Assembly (NCBI GenBank): GCA_019115485.1
Contig: DXDM01000060.1
Location: 1-42,739, forward strand
DNA: 42,739 nucleotides
Direction of reading: 5' to 3'
Source: Candidatus Barnesiella excrementavium
GTDB taxonomy: Bacteria > Bacteroidota > Bacteroidia > Bacteroidales > Barnesiellaceae
The notes under the pieces are model-generated. The model was not told the DNA's origin, did not search any database, and saw only the letters and a program-made list of their open reading frames with translations. The position numbers were made by a program, and so were the translations under genes. Positions 47-27,386 of the stretch are shown piece after piece; the first letter of the stretch is position 1, and every line of letters starts with the position of its first letter.

Positions 47-1039
47 ATGGGTCCGTTTTTTTCTATTATTATACCTGTGTATAATGGGGAACAATGCATA
101 GGTCAATGTTTGGATAGCATATATGCGCAAGGTTTATTAGAAGATGATTTCGAGGTTATATGCGTGAATGATGCTTCAACAGACAATACATCAAAAGTAA
201 TTTTAGAGTATGGCCTGTCTCATAAAAATTTACGATTGATTACCCATGAAAAAAATCGTCGACAAGGTGCTGCACGTAATACAGGATTAAGAGCGGCCGC
301 AGGAGAATATATTTTGTATATTGATGCAGATGATGCCTTTATTTCTGATGCATTGCCCCAATTGAAAGAAGAATTGGAAAAGAATAGAGGGATAGACATA
401 TTGAGGTTTAATCATGTGATAGTTAAAAACGGGGAGGTCAAAGAATGTCGGACTCTTTCTGATAGCCAAGAGATAATGTCAGGACGAGATTTTATCAAAA
501 GAAATTCAATTCCGTGGGTACCTTGGCTATGTTCTTATCGTCGTCGGTTTTTGATTGAAAATAATTTGTCCTTTGTAGAAGATGTGCTGTTTGAAGATGC
601 TGATTATGTGATGAATTGTTTGTGTCAGGCAGGGAAAATGAAATATTATTCTCATTTAGTTATTAAGCATGTCTTAGGTATTATTCAAACAACAAATATT
701 AAGAATAATGAAGGGAAAATAAAAGATGTGTTTAAGCTATTAAGTCGAGTGAAGTCCCTTGTAATTAATGAAGAGAAAATAGATAAAGATTCCGCACGAG
801 TTATAATGGGGCATTATGCTTATATGTACAAGAGAAATATTCTTCGATATTGGTGGAGATTGCCATATAAAGATAGGAAAGAGTTGTTAATTCAGAATAA
901 GCCAATGCTACCGTATCAGGATAGATTGATTGCATTTATTGGAGCGTATCCTATGTTGTTTTTATGGTTAAGTGTTATTGCTAAGCCTTTTTTACCAAGT
1001 ATGAGACTTATTTATTTAAAGGTTAAAGGAAGGACCTAA
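47..1039 (+). CDS. Family 2 glycosyltransferase
   Basis: This 330-residue protein probably transfers a sugar from a nucleotide donor during surface polysaccharide synthesis at the cytoplasmic face of the membrane. The N-terminus has the GT-A start FSIIIPVYNGE (about residues 5-15), then VNDASTDNT, the RRQGAARNTGL loop and the metal-binding YIDADDAF (about 91-98). The C-terminal end has a hydrophobic amphipathic stretch (LIAFIGAYPMLFLWLSVIA) that may dock on the membrane. An in-frame stop lies 13 nt upstream of the ATG, so this start or a later one must be used. Base composition is clearly AT-rich compared with everything downstream, as is usual for capsule or O-antigen loci that move horizontally. 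The acceptor and sugar cannot be read from the sequence. Confidence 0.9.
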   Translation: MGPFFSIIIPVYNGEQCIGQCLDSIYAQGLLEDDFEVICVNDASTDNTSKVILEYGLSHKNLRLITHEKNRRQGAARNTGLRAAAGEYILYIDADDAFISDALPQLKEELEKNRGIDILRFNHVIVKNGEVKECRTLSDSQEIMSGRDFIKRNSIPWVPWLCSYRRRFLIENNLSFVEDVLFEDADYVMNCLCQAGKMKYYSHLVIKHVLGIIQTTNIKNNEGKIKDVFKLLSRVKSLVINEEKIDKDSARVIMGHYAYMYKRNILRYWWRLPYKDRKELLIQNKPMLPYQDRLIAFIGAYPMLFLWLSVIAKPFLPSMRLIYLKVKGRT

Positions 1040-1103
1040 TCTTTGAATGTTTGTTGGCTCATACTAAACGATGCGGAGTGATATATCATTTAAAAAAATA
1101 TAG

Positions 1104-1111
1104 TAACTTTG
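1104..1111 (+). promoter_or_regulatory. Promoter -7 box for typA
   Basis: TAACTTTG matches the Bacteroidetes sigma-ABfr -7 consensus TAnnTTTG. No clean TTTG is seen at -33. The implied leader is about 68 nt and ends with the second copy of the 14-bp repeat. Confidence 0.6.
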
Positions 1112-1170
1112 CACCTTGAAACGTAGAGGCCGATGCATGCGTAACTCGCGTTGCGTGGGTCATTTACTTG

Positions 1171-1184
1171 GTTAAAATAGGTTA
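1171..1184 (+). repeat. 14-bp direct repeat, copy 2 (before typA start)
   Basis: Identical to bases 30-43. It ends one base before the typA ATG and overlaps where a ribosome-binding site would be. Confidence 0.6.
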
Positions 1185-1185
1185 T

Positions 1186-2985
1186 ATGCAGAAAATCAGA
1201 AACATTGCGATTATCGCTCACGTCGACCACGGCAAGACGACGCTGGTGGACAAAATGCTTTTGGCCGGACACCTTTTTCGCGAGAACCAGAACTCCGGAG
1301 AGTTGATATTGGATAATAATGATTTGGAACGGGAACGAGGTATCACGATTCTCTCCAAGAATGTTTCTATTCGGTACAAAGATTACAAAATCAATATTAT
1401 AGATACTCCGGGGCACTCCGATTTCGGTGGTGAGGTGGAGCGTGTGCTCAACATGGCTGACGGCTGTCTGCTGCTGGTCGATGCCTTCGAGGGTCCCATG
1501 CCGCAAACCCGTTTCGTGTTGCAGAAGGCTATCGAGATAGGGTTGAAGCCTATCGTGGTTATCAATAAGGTGGATAAGCCGAATTGCCGCCCCGACGAGG
1601 TGCAGGAGATGGTGCTCGACCTCATGTTCAGCCTCGATGCCACCGAAGACCAGCTCGATTTCCCCACCATATACGGTTCGGCCAAGCAGGGCTGGTTCTC
1701 GACCGACTGGCGTAAACCGACCGACAACATTACCCCACTGCTCGATGCCATCATCAAATACATTCCCGAACCGCAACATCTCGAAGGTACGCCCCAGATG
1801 CTGATTACCTCGCTCGATTATTCGTCGTATGTAGGCCGTATCGCTGTGGGTCGTGTGCATCGCGGTGTGTTGAAGGAGGGCATGGAGGTTGCTTTGTGCA
1901 AGAAAGACGGCTCGACGGTGAAACAGCGCATCAAGGAGCTCGACGTGTTCGAGGGTATGGGCCGCACCAAAGTGCAGTCGGTAGAGTCGGGCGATATTTG
2001 CGCCCTCGTGGGTATCGAGAATTTCGAAATTGGCGATACCATTGCCGATGCCAATGAGCCTGAGGCGCTGCCTCGTATCGCCATCGACGAGCCCACGATG
2101 TCGATGCTGTTCACGATTAACGATTCGCCCTTCTTCGGGAAGGACGGTAAATATGTCACGTCGCGTCACATTGCCGACCGTTTGAAACGAGAGCTCGACA
2201 AGAATCTGGCTCTGCGTGTGGAGCGGGGCGACAGTGACGATGCCTGGACGGTCTATGGCCGTGGCGTGTTGCACTTGTCGGTCTTGATTGAGACGATGCG
2301 CCGCGAGGGTTACGAGTTGCAGGTAGGTCAGCCGCAGGTAATCATCAAGGAGATTGACGGGCAGAAATGCGAACCGGTCGAGTTGCTTACCATCAACCTG
2401 CCCGAGGAGTATGCCAGCAAGATTATCGATATGGTAACCCGCCGCAAGGGCGAGATGGTGTCGATGACCACGCAGAACGACCGCATACACATCGAGTTTC
2501 AAATTCCTTCGCGCGGCATCATCGGGTTGCGCACCAATGTTCTGACGGCTTCGGCTGGCGAGGCCATCATGGCACACCGCTTCCTCGAATATCAACCGTG
2601 GAAGGGCAATATCGATCGCCGTACCAACGGTTCGCTCATCGCCATGGAGTCGGGCACGGCCTATGCCTATGCCATCGACAAGCTGCAAGATCGCGGTCGT
2701 TTCTTCATCTTCCCGCAAGAGGAGGTCTATGCCGGTCAGGTAGTGGGCGAGAATGCCAAGGAGAACGACATTGTGGTCAATGTGACCAAGTCGAAGAAGT
2801 TGACCAACATGCGTGCATCGGGTGCCGACGACAAGGCTCATATCGTTCCGCCGGTTATTTTCAGCCTGGAAGAGGCGCTTGAATACATCAAGGAAGATGA
2901 ATATGTCGAGGTAACTCCCCATCACTTGCGCCTGCGCAAGATTATTCTCGACGAGACCGAGCGCAAGCGGGCCAACCGTTCCTGA
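1186..2985 (+). CDS. typA: Translational GTPase TypA/BipA
   Basis: A 599-residue ribosome-binding GTPase of the EF-G/LepA superfamily that supports ribosome assembly and stress or cold adaptation. The G domain is clear: AHVDHGKTT (P-loop, residues 11-19), the RGIT switch region, DTPGHSDF and NKVDK. EF-Tu-like domain 2, the EF-G-like domains and the BipA C-terminal domain follow ([36 protein letters not shown]). The ATG at 1186 gives the usual family N-terminus [14 protein letters not shown] at 1168 would add six residues not normal for the family. The gene has its own promoter and terminator, so it appears monocistronic. Confidence 0.97.
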
Positions 2986-3011
2986 GAAATCCATCAGACT
3001 TTTAGGATACA

Positions 3012-3054
3012 GAGAGGGGTGCGAAACTGGTTTCGTGCCCCTCTTCTTTTTTTC
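3012..3054 (+). terminator. Rho-independent terminator of typA
   Basis: A 15-bp stem (3012-3026 with 3031-3045, including G-U pairs) closes a 4-nt loop (ctgg) and is followed by a T-rich tail. It starts about 25 nt after the typA stop. Confidence 0.85.
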
Positions 3055-3140
3055 TGGGTTGGGGTGGCCGCCGGTTTGCCGAAAATTGAGTATCTTCACC
3101 GACGGGTTGGCCGGACAAGTCCCGGTACCGGAATGACTGT

Positions 3141-4109
3141 ATGGAGAAGAAACGTGCCAAGAACAACCGAACCGTGACGATTACCCCCGACGAGGTGGCG
3201 GCGTTGAGCCGCTCGATTACGCAGGCCGGGGCGATAACCGACGGTTTCGATTTCGACAACCGGATTATTCGGGGCGACCTCCTGACGGTGCTCGACCGTA
3301 TCCCCGATCACCTGGCCGATCTCATTATCGTCGACCCTCCCTACAATCTGTCGAAGAATTTCCACGGCGTGAACTTTCAAGCCCGTTCGCAAGAGGCCTA
3401 TCTGGACTATCTGCGCAGTTGGTTCCACCGGGTGTGCGAGAAGCTGAAACCTACCGGGTCGCTCTACCTGTGCGGCGACTGGCGATGCACCGCCGTCTTG
3501 CAGACGGTGATGGACGAGGAGCTTACGGTGCTCAACCGCATCACCTGGCAGCGCGAGAAGGGCAAGGGGGCCCGTCAGAACTGGAAGAACGGCATGGAGG
3601 ATATCTGGTATGGGGTGAAGGACAAACGTCACTACTATTTCAATGTCGAGGCGGTGAAGCAGAAGCGGCGGGTGCTGGCGCCTTACCGGCAGAACGGGAA
3701 ACCCAAGGATTGGGAGGAGACCGACCGGGGGAATTTCCGCCTCACCTATCCTTCGAATTTTTGGGACGATATCAGCATTCCCTTCTGGTCGATGCCCGAG
3801 AATACCGACCACCCTACGCAGAAGCCCGAGAAGCTCTATGCCAAGTTGATTCTGGCCTCGTCGCGCGAGGGCGACCTCGTCTTCGATCCCTTCCTGGGGA
3901 GCGGTACCGCGGCCGTGGTGGCCAAGAAGCTGAACCGCCGCTATCTGGGGGTGGAGCTGAATGAGGAGTATTGCCTGTGGGCGGCCAAGCGGCTAAGCCT
4001 GGCCGAGCGCGACCCGTCGATTCAAGGTTATGCCGACGGGGTATTTTGGGAGCGCAATACGCTGGCCGAGCAAAAAGCGCATACGGGGACGTCGACTGAC
4101 TGCGGTTGA
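3141..4109 (+). CDS. Solitary beta-class DNA methyltransferase (N6-adenine/N4-cytosine)
   Basis: A 322-residue AdoMet-dependent DNA amino-methyltransferase. Catalytic motif IV, DPPYNL (residues 65-70), precedes the AdoMet-binding motif FDPFLGSG (248-255). This order defines the beta class. HPTQKP (224-229) and VELNEEY fit this class. No restriction endonuclease, specificity subunit or phage gene is nearby, so it looks like an orphan methylase used for regulation or cell-cycle marking, or a decayed restriction-modification remnant. The target sequence cannot be predicted from the sequence. It converges on cdaA, with 23 nt between the stop codons. Confidence 0.88.
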   Translation: MEKKRAKNNRTVTITPDEVAALSRSITQAGAITDGFDFDNRIIRGDLLTVLDRIPDHLADLIIVDPPYNLSKNFHGVNFQARSQEAYLDYLRSWFHRVCEKLKPTGSLYLCGDWRCTAVLQTVMDEELTVLNRITWQREKGKGARQNWKNGMEDIWYGVKDKRHYYFNVEAVKQKRRVLAPYRQNGKPKDWEETDRGNFRLTYPSNFWDDISIPFWSMPENTDHPTQKPEKLYAKLILASSREGDLVFDPFLGSGTAAVVAKKLNRRYLGVELNEEYCLWAAKRLSLAERDPSIQGYADGVFWERNTLAEQKAHTGTSTDCG

Positions 4110-14352: not shown

Positions 14353-14829
14353 ATGAGAAAGAAAAGATTTCCCTGTATGGTAGTTCTTGCCTGTGGTTTG
14401 TGGCTGGCCGTGTCGGCTCAGAACCCGGGTTACCGGTGGTACATGAATACCGATACGGGTGTGAGTGTAGCCATGGACGAGGTCGATTATCTGTTGCGGA
14501 GCGACGGTTCGGCCGAGTTTTCAATAGTCGTTAAACAAGGCAACCCCGTGGTGGGTGTGCATCGGGTGACATTCGACAAGAAACAGGCCACCGGTATCGA
14601 GACGGAGGCTGTCGAGCAGGTGCGGCTCTACCCCAATCCGGTACAGGAGATGCTTCGTATGAGCGGACTGAGTGCGGGGAGTGTGGTGGAAATTGTGGCG
14701 CTCGACGGACGTGTGGTCAAGCGTGTCGAGGCGTCGGGCAGCGATTTGTCGATACCGGTAGCCGATTTGTCGTCGGGAAGCTATCTGCTCCGAACGGCAA
14801 ACACCACGCTTAAATTCATAAAACGATAA
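14353..14829 (+). CDS. Small secreted protein with T9SS type A sorting domain
   Basis: A 158-residue exported protein with a signal peptide (basic start MRKKRF, hydrophobic core, cleavage near SAQ at about residue 22). A short middle region follows (WYMNTDTGVSVAMDEVDYLL). The last ~70 residues form a type IX secretion C-terminal domain: LYPNPVQEMLRM, then VEIVALDGRVVKR, LSSGSYLLR and the basic end FIKR. The protein would cross the outer membrane by T9SS and be anchored or released. It has almost no cargo besides the sorting domain. An ATG at 14338 is an alternative start, but 14353 has gaaag spaced properly upstream. Only 22 nt separate it from the next gene, so the two are probably an operon. 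Confidence 0.82.
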   Translation: MRKKRFPCMVVLACGLWLAVSAQNPGYRWYMNTDTGVSVAMDEVDYLLRSDGSAEFSIVVKQGNPVVGVHRVTFDKKQATGIETEAVEQVRLYPNPVQEMLRMSGLSAGSVVEIVALDGRVVKRVEASGSDLSIPVADLSSGSYLLRTANTTLKFIKR

Positions 14830-14851: not shown

Positions 14852-16060
14852 ATGAAAAAGTTTTTATTATCCATATTGTGTGCATTGACAATCGTCGCCG
14901 TGCGGGCTCAGTTTGTCGTAGAGAAACAAGACGGAACCCCGGTGGCGGTCGAAGGTGATTTGCATTTTGCCAAAGATGCTGCGGGCGAGAACTGGTCGGT
15001 GGGCGAAACCTATGACCCCGATTTGGATTTGAGTTTGATCGGTAGCATCGAGGCTAAAAGCGAGTCGACCGACCCTTTTGCCGGCAAGACCTGTTGGGTG
15101 TATGGCGTGAAGGCTCCCGATTTCCCGGGGAAAGAGAATGTGAAGAGCTACGCACCGGCGGTAGACCACTTCCCGGCCGGGGAGTGGCTGCGCTACGATT
15201 ATGAGAGCATAGGGGTCGACTTTGAGAAACAGCAACTCACCTGGTGCGATACGTGCGGCTGGTACGACTGCAACAAGACTTATGAGTATGACAAAGCTCC
15301 CGACGGCAGTATGTGTTGGGCCGCTTCGGCTTCCAATTTGCTGCACTGGTGGCTTGTGCAGAACAAGAAATATGTCGAGCGGTACGATGAGCTCTATGGG
15401 CAGCCCTACGACTTTGCCCGTCCGTCGGAGGTCTATAAGGCTCCTAATCCGGGCGACTATGCCAGCAACAAGAGTGAAATATTCAACTTCTTTATTTCCA
15501 GCTTCCAAGACCGGTCGGGGTGGGAAGGTGGCGGAGTCAACTGGTTTATCAGCGGTAACTCGACCAATATTTCGGCTCCCTTCCGCGACCCCAATATGGA
15601 AAATACTTTCCACGGCTTCTTCTCCGAAGTATTTTCTCCGAACGATGTGATTATCGAGGATAGCCGCAACATGTCCAAGGAGAATTTCAATGCGATGATA
15701 AAACGGGCTTTTACCGAGAACAAGGCGATAGGTTTTACAGCCTATAAATTTGTTTCGGGTGGCGAGAGTCTGCACGCCATGACCATTTGGGGCGCCGAGT
15801 TCGACGAGGAGGGGTATGTGTCGCATATCTATTATTGCGACAACAACCTGGTGGATCAAGATGCCAACGGGGCCGCTATTATTCGACTCGGTATTACCTA
15901 TGATGAGAATCCGGCAATTCCTTCCATGGGCGACGTGGCGTATACCATTCAATTGCCTAAACCTTTTGGCGGGTCGCGGAGAACGTCCCTTATCACGGCG
16001 CTCGTTCTGGTCGACTTGCGTCAGGATATATGGAAAAAGGCGTTGGGTGAGGTGGAATAG
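14852..16060 (+). CDS. Secreted IdeS/Mac-like cysteine protease (peptidase family C66)
   Basis: A 402-residue protein with a signal peptide (residues 1-19, cleavage after RA). From about residue 80 it matches the streptococcal IgG-cleaving protease IdeS in order: WVYGVKAPDF, GWYDCNKTY, MCWAASASNLLHWW, IFNFF, VNWFISG, LHAMTIWGAEFD, YYCDNN and QDIW. The papain-like catalytic set aligns: Cys155, His308 and Asp330, plus Lys142 equal to the IdeS oxyanion-hole Lys84. Asn332 stands where IdeS has its second Asp (286). About 60 residues lie between the signal and the domain, and about 20 extra residues precede the GWYD motif. There is no T9SS domain, so it is predicted to reach the periplasm unless carried further. 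The fold and protease call come from remembered IdeS sequence; the substrate is unknown and IgG cleavage is not implied. Confidence 0.85.
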   Translation: MKKFLLSILCALTIVAVRAQFVVEKQDGTPVAVEGDLHFAKDAAGENWSVGETYDPDLDLSLIGSIEAKSESTDPFAGKTCWVYGVKAPDFPGKENVKSYAPAVDHFPAGEWLRYDYESIGVDFEKQQLTWCDTCGWYDCNKTYEYDKAPDGSMCWAASASNLLHWWLVQNKKYVERYDELYGQPYDFARPSEVYKAPNPGDYASNKSEIFNFFISSFQDRSGWEGGGVNWFISGNSTNISAPFRDPNMENTFHGFFSEVFSPNDVIIEDSRNMSKENFNAMIKRAFTENKAIGFTAYKFVSGGESLHAMTIWGAEFDEEGYVSHIYYCDNNLVDQDANGAAIIRLGITYDENPAIPSMGDVAYTIQLPKPFGGSRRTSLITALVLVDLRQDIWKKALGEVE

Positions 16061-16099: not shown

Positions 16100-16144
16100 A
16101 CGACGGGGACTCCTTGCTGGAAAGGAGTCCCCGTCGTTTCTTTA
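16100..16144 (+). terminator. Rho-independent terminator of the IdeS-like operon
   Basis: A perfect 16-bp stem (16100-16115 with 16122-16137), a 6-nt loop and a T-rich tail. It lies 40 nt after the stop. Confidence 0.88.
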
Positions 16145-21554: not shown

Positions 21555-21874
21555 GCAAATATTTATAATTTATTATTTTGTTGGGTGGCGAAATATGAAT
21601 CTTTTATGGCCCTTTCTCCTGATTTCCCTTTTTTTACTTTGTCGGGTATGACGAAAACGGAATTATAATCATTTGGTTGTTAGTATAATATAATTGTATG
21701 CCGTAGTGTTTTATCCATTTAATTTCAAATTGCAGTAGTTGACTGGGGGAATAAAACTTTATGCTTTATAAGATTTTGGTTTCTTTTGTGAGAAATCAAT
21801 TAGACTTGTGAGAGGAAGATTTGATATTCTAATGTAAGCTATATTTTATTTTGGTTCACTAAATGGTTGTTTGT
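21555..21874. other. AT-rich divergent intergenic region
   Basis: About 320 nt, strongly AT-rich compared with its neighbours. It must hold the promoter of the large T9SS gene, but no exact TAnnTTTG is found on the plus strand. TTACTTTG near 21635 misses one base. No ORF or stable hairpin stands out. Confidence 0.4.
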
Positions 21875-24800
21875 ATGAAAAAGATTTTACTTTTTGCTAC
21901 GATGGCTCTTCTGAATGTGAGATTCGGCTTCGCCGAGTTGCACGAAACATTCGACGGCGGAGTCTTTCCTCCCGAGGGGTGGACGACGACTTGCAAACCG
22001 AGTACGTTGAGTGATCACCCGCAATGGAGTTCGACTGACGACATCAATCAGTTCATATTCGGTTATTCCACGGGCGGCTATGCCGCTTATTCCAAAGCCG
22101 GTGGATTCGGCGATGGGTTGGAGACCGACTCCTGGCTGGTAACCCCTCGGGTAACCGTTGAATCGGGACAGTATTTGCACTTTATGTTGGGAGCAAACTG
22201 GGCAACGAATGTGGCTGAAAACGAACGGGCGTTCGAGGTGCTTGTCTCTCAATCGGATACGGCACGGGCTAACTTCACGGATACCTTGATGTGTATCTCG
22301 CCGCAGGGGGTATTGCCTTGGGGTGCTTATGCCCTGGATTTGTCGAAATATGCCGACAAGCCGGTTTATATCGCATTTCATGAACGGGGTCATGGCGGAT
22401 ATTCCTTTGTATTCAATTCGACCTACGTGGACGATGTGGCCATCGATGCATATGCAGGTCCCGATGTGGCCATACATGAAGTGCTGGCAACGGGTAGTGC
22501 TTGTGATACGGAGCAGCCCATACAGGTACAGGTTGTCAATACCGGTTTGTCGGTAAGTTCCTATCGGCTGAACTATCGGCTAGGCGACGGTGAAACCGTG
22601 TCGGAGACGGTTACCGAACCTTTGCTCGCCGGTGAGAATCGGACCTATCAGTTTGCACAGAAGGCTCTGTGTGTGACGGGTGAGACCAGTGAGATAACAG
22701 CTTGGGTTGATGGTATCTCCAACGATTTGAATCTGGAAAACGACACGTTGGAAACCGAGGTTGAGGTGAGACCCTCGATTGATTATCCTTATCAGATGAC
22801 TACGGAGAACATGATTACCGATTTCTCGAGTTCCTCTACTTCTATGCGGGCTGCCTATTGGGCATACAGCCCTGAGAACGAGGCTTGGGTATGGGTACCG
22901 TATAATGGGAAAACGGCTTTGCTGAGAAGTAACTGTATCTCTTTGCCGGCCGGGCCTATCCGGGTGGAGTTTGAGTACATGTCGAGTTACGACTTTACCA
23001 TGACGGTCAAGACGGGTTATTTTGTAACCAAGGAGTATGTGACGGTGGGCGTATCGGACAATCTGCCGGCTTCGGGAACGGAATTTGTCAAGGGTTCGAT
23101 AACCTGTAATATTGCTGAGGCCGGTCTGGTTTCGCTGGCTTTTGAATCGGACTGTCTGGCTCAGGTGGCTGTGCGGAATATCAAAATCGCTGATTCGTAT
23201 GAAGATGTGATTGCCGAACAGATAACATCGCCCAAGTTGTCGGCCAAGTTGGTCAATGGTGCGGTGACGGTTTCGGCCCTATTCAAGAACGGAGGCAAGA
23301 CGGTTCAGAACCATGTCCCGGTCTATTACCAGGTCAATGACGGCGAAGTCGTATCGGGTGAAATCGATGCCTTGGCTGCCAACGAGAGTAAGGAGTATAC
23401 TTTCCCGACGGCGGCCGATTGGAGCACCCCGGGTGAGAAAGTCTTGAAGGTGTGGTCGGCCATGTCGGGCGACGGTGACTTGTCGAACGATACGTTGACG
23501 ACCCGGGTTCAGGTCTATACGGCCCGTACCTTCCCGCACAACATGGGCTTCAACGAAGACTCTTCGGACGTAATCTACTGGGCGTCCTATAATCCCGACC
23601 AAGACGGGGTATATTGGGAACCGATTCTGAAAGCTGCGGCCGGTTTGGCCAAAGAGGGTAGCGGTATCGGATACATCGATTCGTATTCAGGTATTACACA
23701 CAACGACTGGTATATCAGTCCGGCTATCTCGATGCCCAAAGGCAAGGCTCGAATCTCGTTCTACTATGCTACCGTATATTCTACGGGCGAAAGCTCTTTG
23801 AAGGTCTACATGGGCCGGAGCGACGATCCCGACAGTCTGACAACTCTCCTGTGCTCCTATCCGGTGGACAAGGTGAACCAATATCGTTGTGGATATGCCC
23901 AATTCGATATACCCGAAGCCGGTAACTACTATTTCGCCTTTTACAACGAGGGTACGGGCCGTAACATCATACTCGACGATGTGCGTATCGATGCTGCCGA
24001 AGATGTGGCCATGTCGTCGGTAGAACTGGATTGTGCCGATGGATTTAATTTGAGTGAGGCCGCCGTAACGGTACAGGTTGTCAATCTGGGCGTTTCGCCG
24101 CAAGAGAATCTGACACTTTCCTATGAGATGAACGGTAACGGTTCGCCTGTGTCGGAACTTTATGAAGGTCCGTTGGCTCCCGGTGATACGGTTACCTATA
24201 CCTTCACCCAGAAGGCCGATGTGTCGGCAGTCGGTACCTACACCTTCCGCGGTTATGTGAAGAGTTCGGTCGACACCGACAGTTACAACGATACATTGCC
24301 GGGAGCTTCGCTACAACACTGGGCCAACGCCACGATTCCGTATAAAGAGAATTTTGAAGATGCCACGACTGACCAGTACTGGGCATTGAAGTCGTTGTCG
24401 GGTGCCAGTCTGGTGATTTCCCACTCGGCGTCTAGTTCCAGTTCGGCCTATGACGGCTCGGGATTGCTGGGTTGCAGCGGTCAAATGCAGGCCGACGTTG
24501 ATACCTGGGCCCGGTCGCAGTGCATTGATATTCCGGCCGGAGAGTATGAGTTCTCGATGTTCTATCGTACCATGATGAATCAACCTGCATCGCCAAATAC
24601 TACGCTCTCTTTCGTACAACGGTTCAGAGTATACCTCACGGCCGACCCCGACGACATGACCAATGCCATTTTGCTGTATGACAACGACAGCGTGATTGTG
24701 AAGGAGAAACATTATGCCAAACTTTTGGTACCGGTTACGGTCGACAAGGACGGTGCCTACTACATTGTCATCAACTGCTATTCGCCCCAGGGGAACGGTT

Positions 24801-25564
24801 GCCTTTACCTCGACGATATCGAGTTGGCACCGGTAGCCGAGGCGGGGACAACACTCCCGTATCGCTCCGATTTCGAGTCGAACGAGAGCGAGTGGTACCA
24901 TTACAGTCCGGCCTCCAACATCGAACAGTGGAGTGCCGAGACCGAAGGTGGGGAAACTTTCATGCAGACGCAATATTTCTATGACTACGGAATGGAGTCC
25001 AGTGGTATTGCCGGCCTCTATGTGGCTCCCTCGGTAGCTCTGTCGCAAGGCGACTCGGTGCGTGTGACTATCGATTACGAAATCATGATCGACGACCCTG
25101 CAAGCGACCACGGACAGAACATGACGGTTTACATGGCCGATAAAGATGTACCCGATGCTTATACCACCCCGGTGGTTTGCGGTGATGTGATTGGCGACCG
25201 GAGTCAGGTTTCGGGAGTCGTGGCTATTCCCCAAGACGGTATCTATTACTTCGGTGTGAAACCTTACTGCCCGCAGGAGACTTCGGCTACCCAGATGCGG
25301 TTGTTTGCCTTCGATATGGAGCGTGTCAACAGCGTGTCGGGGGTAGAGTCGGTCGAGAACCCGTCGTCGTTCTTCTTTGACGGAGAGCGGTTGCATATCC
25401 TGGGCGACTATATCGAGGTAACCCTCTACGATTGCCGCGGTGCCGCCACGGGAAGCTATCGTGACGAGTCGGTTATCGACCTGGGTAACCTGTCCTCGGG
25501 AGTCTATATTGTGCGACTGTTGACCGGTACGCAGGTTGTTACAGGCAAGATTATGGTTCAATAA
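21875..25564 (+). CDS. Large T9SS cell-surface protein with repeated choice-of-anchor J-type domains
   Basis: A 1229-residue secreted protein. Signal peptide residues 1-20 (MKKILLFATM start). It has several jelly-roll modules of the cleaved-adhesin/choice-of-anchor J kind, recognised by a start like ETFDGGVFPPEGW, DSWLVTPR or WYISPAI, and an end like YVDDVAIDA, ILDDVRIDA or LYLDDIELA. Between them are CARDB-like beta domains (VQVVNTG; VQVVNLG). The last ~75 residues are a type A sorting domain (LYDCRGAATGS, LSSGVYIVRLL, GKIMVQ). An ATG at 21863 is possible; 21875 gives a proper signal peptide. Such modules bind carbohydrates or proteins or accompany gingipain-like proteases; no catalytic domain was seen here. 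Confidence 0.85.
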   Translation: MKKILLFATMALLNVRFGFAELHETFDGGVFPPEGWTTTCKPSTLSDHPQWSSTDDINQFIFGYSTGGYAAYSKAGGFGDGLETDSWLVTPRVTVESGQYLHFMLGANWATNVAENERAFEVLVSQSDTARANFTDTLMCISPQGVLPWGAYALDLSKYADKPVYIAFHERGHGGYSFVFNSTYVDDVAIDAYAGPDVAIHEVLATGSACDTEQPIQVQVVNTGLSVSSYRLNYRLGDGETVSETVTEPLLAGENRTYQFAQKALCVTGETSEITAWVDGISNDLNLENDTLETEVEVRPSIDYPYQMTTENMITDFSSSSTSMRAAYWAYSPENEAWVWVPYNGKTALLRSNCISLPAGPIRVEFEYMSSYDFTMTVKTGYFVTKEYVTVGVSDNLPASGTEFVKGSITCNIAEAGLVSLAFESDCLAQVAVRNIKIADSYEDVIAEQITSPKLSAKLVNGAVTVSALFKNGGKTVQNHVPVYYQVNDGEVVSGEIDALAANESKEYTFPTAADWSTPGEKVLKVWSAMSGDGDLSNDTLTTRVQVYTARTFPHNMGFNEDSSDVIYWASYNPDQDGVYWEPILKAAAGLAKEGSGIGYIDSYSGITHNDWYISPAISMPKGKARISFYYATVYSTGESSLKVYMGRSDDPDSLTTLLCSYPVDKVNQYRCGYAQFDIPEAGNYYFAFYNEGTGRNIILDDVRIDAAEDVAMSSVELDCADGFNLSEAAVTVQVVNLGVSPQENLTLSYEMNGNGSPVSELYEGPLAPGDTVTYTFTQKADVSAVGTYTFRGYVKSSVDTDSYNDTLPGASLQHWANATIPYKENFEDATTDQYWALKSLSGASLVISHSASSSSSAYDGSGLLGCSGQMQADVDTWARSQCIDIPAGEYEFSMFYRTMMNQPASPNTTLSFVQRFRVYLTADPDDMTNAILLYDNDSVIVKEKHYAKLLVPVTVDKDGAYYIVINCYSPQGNGCLYLDDIELAPVAEAGTTLPYRSDFESNESEWYHYSPASNIEQWSAETEGGETFMQTQYFYDYGMESSGIAGLYVAPSVALSQGDSVRVTIDYEIMIDDPASDHGQNMTVYMADKDVPDAYTTPVVCGDVIGDRSQVSGVVAIPQDGIYYFGVKPYCPQETSATQMRLFAFDMERVNSVSGVESVENPSSFFFDGERLHILGDYIEVTLYDCRGAATGSYRDESVIDLGNLSSGVYIVRLLTGTQVVTGKIMVQ

Positions 25565-25579
25565 TTTCAGGTAACTCGA

Positions 25580-25622
25580 AGAGGGTGTGTATGCTTCTCC
25601 TGGAAGCATACGCCTCTCTTCT
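25580..25622 (+). terminator. Hairpin between the two T9SS genes, possible terminator/attenuator
   Basis: A perfect 9-bp core stem (gtatgcttc/gaagcatac), extendable with G-U pairs and a one-base bulge to the gagg/cctc ends. A short pyrimidine-rich tail (ctcttcttt) follows. It lies 16 nt after the first stop and ends just before the next gene. It could reduce read-through rather than stop it fully. Confidence 0.5.
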
Positions 25623-25637
25623 TTAATTGATATTCAG

Positions 25638-27386
25638 ATGAACAAGATATATTTTACGGGGCTCGTCATGGCATGGAGCTTGGGAGTTTCGGCACAGCCG
25701 ATTTATGAGTTGTCTCCGATAAAATCGTTGCTGTATGAGCGTCCGTTGACATCGAGCTCTGTTTGTTATTCGACGGCGGGTGAAGCCCTGCCCTATATCG
25801 AGGATTTTGATTCGCCGGAATCGTCGACCGGTTTACCCGCGGGGTGGAGTGTGTCCGATGAGAGTACTACGGCTCGATTTACCATGCAGGTCAATGCGTT
25901 GAGTGGAATCACGGCTCATTCGGGCCAATATTATCTCGTGTCGGGACCCGATGCAAGCGGACAGGCCCGCGATGCCTGGGCTTTCTCTCCGGCATTTGAT
26001 TTGGTGGAGGGCAATTCTTATTATATAGCCCTCTATTGTGTTGCCCCGGGATATAAGGGGACGGCCGACCAGTTCGAGGTTACGGTCGGTCGGGAGGCTT
26101 CGGTTGCGGCACAGACGCAATGCCTCATCGACAAATCGGGCGATCAAGCTGCTATATACACAGAGTGGGTCAAAATAGAAGGGGTGTTTACCCCCGAGGA
26201 GACCGGTGAATATTATTTTGCCATACATCATTGCACGCCGGCGGGGACGACCGGTAATGCGGTGGGCTTCGACGATTTTACCGTGTCGGCAGAGCCTATT
26301 GTAGACAGACCTGTGGTTGAGCCTTATTTCACGGGTGGTCTCTGGTCGTTTACGGCCGATACGGTGTATGTAGGCGATTCGGAGCCTTTGAATTATGGTG
26401 TGACGGGACAGAATGTCGATACCTACCAGTGGGAGTTCGGCCCTGATGCTACCCCTGCATCGGCTTCGACGGCCTTGGCTTCGGTGGTCTATGTTACCGA
26501 CGGAGTGAAGCAGGGCATTGTGACGGCTTCCAATGAAAACGGGTCGGTGAGCGATACGTTGGAAACGGGGGTCGTACACCTGTCGCCTGCGGTACAGGAC
26601 TATGTGTGCAACCGGCGTAAATCGGACGTCTTGACTACTTATCAAGTGAGTGAGTATGGCTTCATGTTGGGGCTGAATGCCAATTATAGCACGATAGCCG
26701 AGAAATTTACTCTCCCCGACCAGGCCAAGGGTGAGGTCGACGAGGTGGTTATCTACACCTATCTCTATGCCTTGGAGGCAGCCAATCAGGAAAAGAATAT
26801 GGTTTTGAGCCTCTATGACGAGGCTTCCGATGGGCTGCCGGGCAATCTGATAGCCTCTTTCTCGGGAGTGATGAAAGATGTTTTTGGAAGTGAAAATTCG
26901 GTGGGCCGTTTCAGTACTGCAGTTTTCCCGTCTGTTGAGGTAAACGGCAGTTTCTTCGTGGTTTTAACCTTCCCCGAGATTACTCCCGATGCCAACAACA
27001 TGCTCGGACTGGTCTCTACGCAGAGCCGCAGCCACGACGACTGTACGGCTTATGCCAACTATCAAGGGCGATGGTATCCGATGAATGCTCTTTACAGTGG
27101 AGCCAATCTCTCGTCGTTGATTTCTCCGCGGTATACCTATGTGGGGACTTCGGCGGTTCGCTCTGTCGAGGGCAATACGGCTCTCTCGCTGGTAACGGAC
27201 GGAGAGTCGTTGCAGATACGGGGCAGCGTAGTGGGCGAGCTTTATCGTGTGTTCGACCTTTCGGGGCGTATCGTGGCCTCGGGTCAGACCGACGAGAACG
27301 TGACTGCCGTATCGCTGTCGGAACTCTCACGGGGGGTATATGTTGTTTGCGTCGGCAACCGTACCGTGGGTAAGATTGTGCGATAG
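25638..27386 (+). CDS. T9SS surface protein with choice-of-anchor J and PKD-like domains
   Basis: A 582-residue secreted protein. Signal peptide residues 1-19 (cleavage at SAQ). A choice-of-anchor J-type module follows at about 50-222 (YIEDFDSPES ... AVGFDDFTV). A PKD/Ig-like segment (about 250-320, DTYQWEFGPDATP) comes next, then a beta region with VLSLYDEASDGLPGNLIAS. The C-terminal T9SS type A domain has YRVFDLSGRIVASG, LSRGVYVVCVG and the basic end GKIVR. The ATG at 25638 was chosen because upstream codons overlap the hairpin and do not encode a signal peptide. Probably co-expressed with the 1229-residue protein before it. Confidence 0.84.
   Translation: MNKIYFTGLVMAWSLGVSAQPIYELSPIKSLLYERPLTSSSVCYSTAGEALPYIEDFDSPESSTGLPAGWSVSDESTTARFTMQVNALSGITAHSGQYYLVSGPDASGQARDAWAFSPAFDLVEGNSYYIALYCVAPGYKGTADQFEVTVGREASVAAQTQCLIDKSGDQAAIYTEWVKIEGVFTPEETGEYYFAIHHCTPAGTTGNAVGFDDFTVSAEPIVDRPVVEPYFTGGLWSFTADTVYVGDSEPLNYGVTGQNVDTYQWEFGPDATPASASTALASVVYVTDGVKQGIVTASNENGSVSDTLETGVVHLSPAVQDYVCNRRKSDVLTTYQVSEYGFMLGLNANYSTIAEKFTLPDQAKGEVDEVVIYTYLYALEAANQEKNMVLSLYDEASDGLPGNLIASFSGVMKDVFGSENSVGRFSTAVFPSVEVNGSFFVVLTFPEITPDANNMLGLVSTQSRSHDDCTAYANYQGRWYPMNALYSGANLSSLISPRYTYVGTSAVRSVEGNTALSLVTDGESLQIRGSVVGELYRVFDLSGRIVASGQTDENVTAVSLSELSRGVYVVCVGNRTVGKIVR

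Follow-up and report, generated by a model that had tools for sequence, protein, structure and literature searches.

A gene pair found in the genome of Candidatus Barnesiella excrementavium couples a protease of the Mac/IdeS family to a small protein bearing the sorting signal that the protease does not carry. The two genes lie on contig DXDM01000060.1 (C55; assembly GCA_019115485.1, a 2.68-Mb genome in 60 contigs), which was analysed over its whole length of 42,739 nucleotides, hereafter the window. The downstream gene, P0001 (14852..16060, + strand), is an exact and complete open reading frame (ORF) starting with ATG, and encodes a protein of 402 residues. The upstream gene, P0002 (14338..14829, +), encodes a protein of 163 residues ending with a sorting domain of the type IX secretion system (T9SS). 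The best explanation for the data, to which we grant an even chance, is that the secreted protease is a split T9SS substrate, the sorting signal being supplied in trans by P0002.

P0002 is made by a signal peptide, a core of about 65 residues and a type A T9SS tail, matched by both PF18962 (E 5.5e-8) and TIGR04183 (E 5.9e-8). The core (14431..14616, +) is common to a family of small partner proteins, and core positions D25 and F30 are invariant in the alignment of 19 cores. The C-terminal sorting domain (14626..14826, +) was also identified in a whole-genome search (TIGR04183, E 6.2e-8). The stop of P0002 and the start of P0001 are separated by 22 bases, and a strong hairpin of 16 pairs, resembling an intrinsic terminator as judged by a consensus match, is located behind the two-gene unit (16100..16137, +). 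P0001 has no T9SS tail: no Pfam or TIGR04183 tail row was obtained at E<=1, and none was found by a hidden Markov model (HMM) made from tails of the source genome. A lipobox was similarly not found by a rule-based check. The T9SS translocon gene is present in the source genome, as a SprA_N match (E 2.3e-198) in a frame of 2503 residues, along with 51 T9SS-tail matches. Once signal and tail are taken off, P0002 is left with about 65 residues. It is unlikely to be an enzyme itself, and is likely a carrier, as proposed here, an anchor or an inhibitor.

P0002-type genes are constantly paired with a cargo gene. The P0002 core, searched alone and ignoring the cargo, matched 13 of 393 sampled Bacteroidales genomes, 12 after one rejection, for 18 accepted places. 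It was found in 4 of 9 genomes of the source genus, in all 9 genomes of family f22 and, across the phylum sample, in 1 genome of 296, the source genome itself. The family totals 30 places, 28 with readable downstream sequence, the two others being located at a contig end (G692:C34) or at a contig edge (G693:C51; genomes, contigs and loci used for comparison are denoted by G, C and L numbers). A cargo gene on the same strand follows the P0002-type gene in 28 places out of 28. Twenty-five cargos are intact and start -4 to +52 nt from the partner stop, pair detection having allowed up to +120 or +100 nt; three are decayed, being frame-broken (G005), reduced to a remnant (G003) or truncated (G315:C54). 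Decay in the two Barnesiella genomes has left remnants of both genes at L143 (G003:C23), while at L022 (G005:C45) the frame of the protease is broken in its N-terminal portion; intact copies exist elsewhere. Two candidate members of the family were rejected, their matches being short or embedded in a long frame: one within a frame of 2104 residues in G075, and a partial one within a frame of 578 residues in G186. Three further small ORFs of the source genome carrying a T9SS tail (L180-L182) lack the P0002 core.

Cargos belong to different protein types. Seven are Mac-1 proteins (the window, G005, frame-broken, two in G006, G393, G049, and the G003 remnant), three are transglutaminase-like (Transglut_core), one is a GH43 arabinanase-like protein, and one a C10 peptidase with a PF13734 prodomain. 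Two uncharacterised types were sorted by eye: six proteins of 551-555 residues, one truncated, and ten repeat-type proteins (L129, L131, L133-L135, L138, L172, L173, L178, L179), often organized around the motif SAFQGYPDEEW. No Pfam row was found for the six repeat-type proteins scanned (L129, L131, L133, L134, L135, L138). A signal-peptide-like start was observed in 24 of the 25 intact cargos, the start of L142 being uncertain, and a lipobox in none of the 25. An HMM derived from 40 other tails of the source genome recognized the tail in all 19 partners given and in 0 of 26 cargos (the 25 intact ones and the L069 protein described below), and PF18962 exceeded its cut-off in none of the 18 cargos scanned with Pfam. 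For comparison, 40 out of the 50 remaining tail genes of the source genome were taken as controls; 8 are followed by an ORF of at least 100 residues starting within -30 to +60 nt, an interval into which all 25 intact pairs fall.

Small genes are found beside protease genes in known systems also. In Tannerella, genes for small inhibitor lipoproteins stand immediately before those of the KLIKK proteases (PMC7296668), and C10 protease genes of B. fragilis have small ORFs within 35 bp, two pairs being co-transcribed (PMC2873492). Order and size of the genes are similar to those seen here. By analogy with potempins/KLIKK or Bfi/C10, P0002 could serve specifically to inhibit or chaperone the adjacent protein, a view that agrees with a partner tree following the cargo, as reported below, and with a weak lipobox-like VLAC in a hydrophobic stretch of P0002; as seen by eye, several relatives lack this Cys. 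Potempins and Bfi have been described as inhibitors. In contrast, P0002-type genes precede also genes for non-proteases, including GH43 and transglutaminase-like proteins, as well as genes for uncharacterised repeat proteins, and one inhibitor family would hardly suit all of these. The inhibitor hypothesis, for which the precedents are good, does not fit the presence of P0002-type genes before GH43 and transglutaminase-like genes, and we consider it unlikely. Moreover, the T9SS tail resides here in the small protein, and is missing in the cargo. KLIKK proteases themselves carry a T9SS tail.

P0001 begins with a Sec signal peptide (residues 1-19; 14852..14908, +), predicted by eye and by a hydropathy rule, and continues with a segment of about 55 residues starting with QFVVEKQDGT (14909..15076, +). 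The same segment, called here the N-module and proposed as a docking module, occurs in other cargos. With an HMM built from the N-modules of five Mac-1 cargos, 9 of the 21 remaining cargos gave a match at their start, including transglutaminase-like proteins (1.8e-11, 6.1e-9 and 1.3e-8), proteins of the ~552-residue type (3.6e-7 to 2.2e-2) and, weakly, the GH43 protein (1.2e-3). In 19 whole genomes the N-module was found at 16 places, 13 of which had built the search model; 16 of 16 are directly behind a P0002-type gene, and none is elsewhere. Among the loci compared, every Mac-1 gene bearing an N-module is directly preceded by a P0002-type gene (the window, L022, L024, L023, L016/L141, L007/L142), truncated in L007/L142. 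The two genes may alternatively be merely co-regulated. In this view P0002 would be one more small T9SS protein with nothing special about it, while P0001 would stay in the periplasm or leave in outer-membrane vesicles. The plain Sec-type signal of P0001 is compatible with such fate, and a tailless extracellular enzyme of Sporocytophaga has been taken to point to vesicles (PMC6247017). Yet simple co-regulation is at odds with a pairing that is kept across unrelated cargos in all 28 readable places and with an N-module found behind a P0002-type gene in 16 of 16 places, and would leave P0002 its ~65 residues for a function of its own. We regard it as improbable.

Partners and cargos have been inherited together. 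In a tree of 26 partners, the four cargo classes, covering 24 rows, require 3 changes, which is the minimum, versus a mean of 12.2 after shuffling. Sorted by genome, counting the seven that have two to four pairs, the same tree requires 12 changes versus a shuffled mean of 11.1. The partner tree thus tracks the cargo class and not the genome, and each partner therefore moves along with its type of cargo. The C10 and GH43 rows were left out of the cargo-class count. The former falls inside the group of repeat-type partners, and the C10 cargo carries those repeats as well; the latter is a long branch inside the ~552-residue group. Support is moderate for the ~552-residue (91/90) and transglutaminase-like (89/75) clades, and all five Mac-1 partners of the tree cluster together (95/92). 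The catalytic domains of partnered Mac-1 proteins lie at two places of the Mac-1 tree, and a single clade was rejected by the approximately unbiased (AU) test (p-AU 0.0039). The test was made separately because L142 is a long branch in this tree, after dropping nine alignment rows (five divergent D-S-D rows, described below, and four near-copies), and shares the long-branch weakness of the model. With Mac-1 partners in one group and catalytic domains in two places, the pattern is most simply read as the joining of a single delivery unit to two Mac-1 lineages.

A carrier role of P0002 accounts for cargos without a tail, for a partner that has one, for the module in common and for co-inheritance. 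According to the route proposed, P0001 would be produced together with P0002, and both would be taken across the inner membrane by Sec. P0002 would bind P0001 via the N-module of the latter, lending it the T9SS sorting signal; the pair would exit through the T9SS, and at the cell surface the remainder of P0002 would anchor or release the protease. The cleavage carried out there by P0001 would be limited, and its target a large host protein. More generally, proteins of ~150-170 residues, made by core and tail, may act in some gut Bacteroidales as modular export tags, which dock onto tailless neighbours and export them in trans; we rate this broader view slightly below an even chance. As part of it, the same delivery unit would have been combined with Mac-1 proteases of two or more lineages, and with C10, transglutaminase-like, GH43 and repeat proteins. 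The pairing represents a new form of T9SS cargo organisation, its trans-export function being putative. In the titles and abstract openings searched, a coverage which leaves out most subscription papers, no published account of a tag-cargo pairing was found, nor one on P0002-type pairing for IdeS-type enzymes of gut Bacteroidales.

Several points speak against export in trans. In human-pathogen Bacteroidetes, T9SS cargos reportedly always bear a C-terminal domain (CTD) of their own (PMC8545088). No N-module match was found in 12 of the 28 cargo genes (the ten repeat-type ones, the C10 peptidase and one remnant), and repeat-type and C10 cargos would therefore rely on other docking, if any. Relatedness of the P0002 core and the N-module was not shown by hhalign (probability 8.6%). 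The C10 cargo has one internal PF18962 row, of 15.2 bits versus a cut-off of 27, and 5 of the 40 control tail genes have a signal-like gene close behind. Co-transcription of P0001 and P0002 is suggested by spacing and the terminator-like hairpin, a simple rule served to call signal peptides, and T9SS genes were looked at in the source genome only (SprA_N and tails). The explanation as a whole is built on sequence.

A similar arrangement was noticed in a Cruoricaptor metagenome-assembled genome (MAG). At L069:4357-8774, a protein of 276 residues, featuring Cleaved_Adhesin and a T9SS tail, is encoded 8 nt before a Mac-1 protein of 1192 residues, which includes reprolysin and Mac-1 domains and has no tail. 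This single case suggests that the tag-cargo principle may reach beyond the P0002 family.

P0001 is a new member of the known Mac/IdeS family, and is predicted to be a papain-like, secreted cysteine endopeptidase. PF09028 (Mac-1) matches residues 135-351 with an E value of 1.2e-19 and 71 bits, over the curated cut-off of 20.3; the catalytic domain spans 15254..15904 (+). The sole further Pfam row, AvrRpt2 C70, reaches 13.7 bits, below its cut-off of 19, and no NCBIfam row was obtained at E<=1. Among PDB sequences, the top match is Treponema denticola C0362/T-Mac (E 1.2e-19), followed by IdeS (2au1, E 2e-16) and the streptococcal IgM protease (E 7.9e-13). When a profile of 53 rows was used, T-Mac (4.2e-38) and IdeS (7.7e-38) were level. 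The initial annotation of the window, made from the letters alone, had recognized an IdeS/Mac homologue at 14852..16060, with counterparts of all key residues and a distinct N-terminal extension. Family assignment, residues and extension are borne out by the analysis.

The catalytic cysteine, Cys155 (15314..15316, +), and the catalytic histidine, His308 (15773..15775, +), are conserved in 53 of 53 rows. Lys142 (15275..15277, +), equivalent to IdeS Lys84 and T-Mac Lys379 in the alignment to PDB sequences, and Asp330 (15839..15841, +), equivalent to IdeS Asp284 and T-Mac Glu583, are each found in 51 of 53. Asn332 (15845..15847, +) takes the place of IdeS Asp286 and of the catalytic Asn585 of T-Mac. 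The residue, pointed out in the initial annotation, is a trait of the branch and not of this gene, as Asn is found in 48 of 53 homologues. The remaining five rows (three Akkermansia MAGs, one further bacterium, one Bacteroidales MAG) have D-S-D as in IdeS; one of the three Akkermansia rows has Glu in place of the active-site Lys. In the crystal structure of T-Mac the triad residue is Asn-585, and Glu-583 occupies the place of Asp-284 (PMC11833123). The D-N-N motif is thus compatible with activity, since the triad of T-Mac uses Asn at the equivalent place, and Asn332 is likely a triad member.

Substrates are less easily predicted. In the initial annotation P0001 had been likened to enzymes cutting immunoglobulins. 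If it acted as in Streptococcus, the targets would here be antibodies, of the gut or of birds. Family and active-site residues are the same as in IdeS and the streptococcal IgM protease, the streptococcal PDB entries matched being IgG and IgM proteases, and two genomes of the source genus, An55 and An22, come from chicken-caecum isolates (PMC6069880). However, T-Mac, the top single-sequence PDB match, cleaves C3, C3b, C4 and factor H, and leaves IgG uncut (PMC11833123), the pairwise match of P0001 to IdeS is limited to residues 134-332, and specificity is unreadable from sequence. Since T-Mac cuts complement and spares IgG, immunoglobulin cutting by P0001 is not inferable. Cleavage of immunoglobulins seems to us unlikely. 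Complement or another immune protein would be at least as likely a target, and is in our judgement a tentative candidate; other targets make up the remainder.

P0001 resembles IdeS/Mac-1 and the IgM protease of Streptococcus (labelled MEROPS C66 in the initial annotation) in the PF09028 match, in the order of conserved blocks, and in having counterparts of Lys84, Cys94, His262 and Asp284. It differs from streptococcal IdeS in the Asn at the place of Asp286, in insertions, and in residing in an organism with a Gram-negative envelope. T-Mac, the C-terminal half of TDE0362 ('dentipain'), is similar to P0001 in the Cys, His and Lys residues and in the triad Asn. Domains of the Big type and an Ig-like N-120 domain lie in front of it (PMC11833123), whereas P0001 is equipped with a short N-module and with a partner, encoded separately, that bears a T9SS tail. 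Type A T9SS cargos feature the TIGR04183/PF18962 tail found in P0002; here the enzyme is tailless, and the tail is carried by the separate protein of 163 residues. Mac-1 proteins of gut Bacteroidales with a fimbrillin-like region have ~33-44% identity to P0001 and the same C-terminal end. They feature PF13149 and often a lipobox, in place of which P0001 has the N-module and P0002. PF13149 precedes the protease in 6 of 7 Bacteroidales Mac-1 proteins scanned, and a lipobox, by a crude rule, was found in 26 of 53 full Mac-1 ORFs, many others having an uncertain start.

IdeS-type enzymes are known mostly from Streptococcus. The family extends beyond this genus, because Mac-1 genes were found in 10 of 393 sampled Bacteroidales genomes and in 5 of 9 genomes of the source genus, the 9 being part of a set of 41, a Bacteroides finegoldii plasmid copy has already been named 'IdeS/Mac family cysteine endopeptidase', and Treponema T-Mac has been published. 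In the phylum sample Mac-1 genes were found in 2 of 296 genomes, both Bacteroidales. A scan of species genomes, with patterns taken from Bacteroidales rows, detected 185 encoding stretches. The best 80 of 185 were kept, corresponding to 79 loci; of these best loci about 52 have Bacteroidales names and most others are Akkermansia, the rest including Capnocytophaga, Cruoricaptor, a spirochaete and others. Akkermansia MAGs (L072-L099) carry many divergent Mac-1 copies, two or three in several loci, and in L076 and L082 Mac-1 lies within stop-to-stop frames of >3,200 residues. P0001 had no match in 50,697 phage records and one, at 31% identity, in 72,556 plasmid records.

The source genome has a second Mac-1 copy, of the fimbrillin-like type (L001). 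The gene (G000:C31, L144:4661-6538, - strand) has a tyrosine recombinase and a transposase of the Mutator type in its vicinity, neighbours being listed at 273-1502 (-) and 2026-3321 (+) of L144, and is near-identical, by eye, in two genomes of the same genus. The Mac-1 domain of the An22 copy is near-identical in Alistipes Marseille-P5061 and in a MAG labelled Eubacterium; the distribution of this fimbrillin-like copy is an apparent recent transfer. Another fimbrillin-type gene (L041, L042, L057) has near-identical Mac-1 domains, with branch lengths near 0, in isolates from chicken caecum that belong to three families (Alistipes An66, Barnesiella An55, Muribaculum An289). On the B. finegoldii plasmid (L101, NZ_OY725919.1) the IdeS/Mac gene adjoins a transposase gene.

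In the window, L022 and L024 the P0002-P0001 pair is flanked by aroC and by a gene of the OmpA family that lies on the opposite strand; in L023 it is not. Compared with L024, identity is 68% for P0001, 62% for P0002, 90% for aroC and 95% for ompA, and the pair is thus less conserved than its flanks. Rates of non-synonymous (dN) and synonymous (dS) change relative to Barnesiella An55 are 0.071 and 0.619 for P0001, measured on the open part of the orthologue, and 0.236 and 1.06 for P0002; both genes are under purifying selection. Elsewhere in the window, 21863-25564 and 25587-27386 encode tandem large secreted proteins, with T9SS-tail matches over the TIGR04183 cut-off and under the Pfam cut-off; the product of 21863-25564 has CARDB domains.

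In Flavobacterium columnare, proteins without a recognizable CTD seem to depend on the T9SS, by a route left unexplained (PMC9936825). If the carrier role of P0002 is correct, the sorting domain would be needed in the complex rather than in each chain, and T9SS-dependent proteins devoid of a CTD could be explained in this way. Paired tag and cargo would provide a concrete mechanism, and the P0002 core and the N-module a sequence handle for finding such cargos. For commensals, this would be a modular route for displaying enzymes. On the protease side, a partner-delivered branch would be added to a family of host-immune proteases scattered in gut Bacteroidales.
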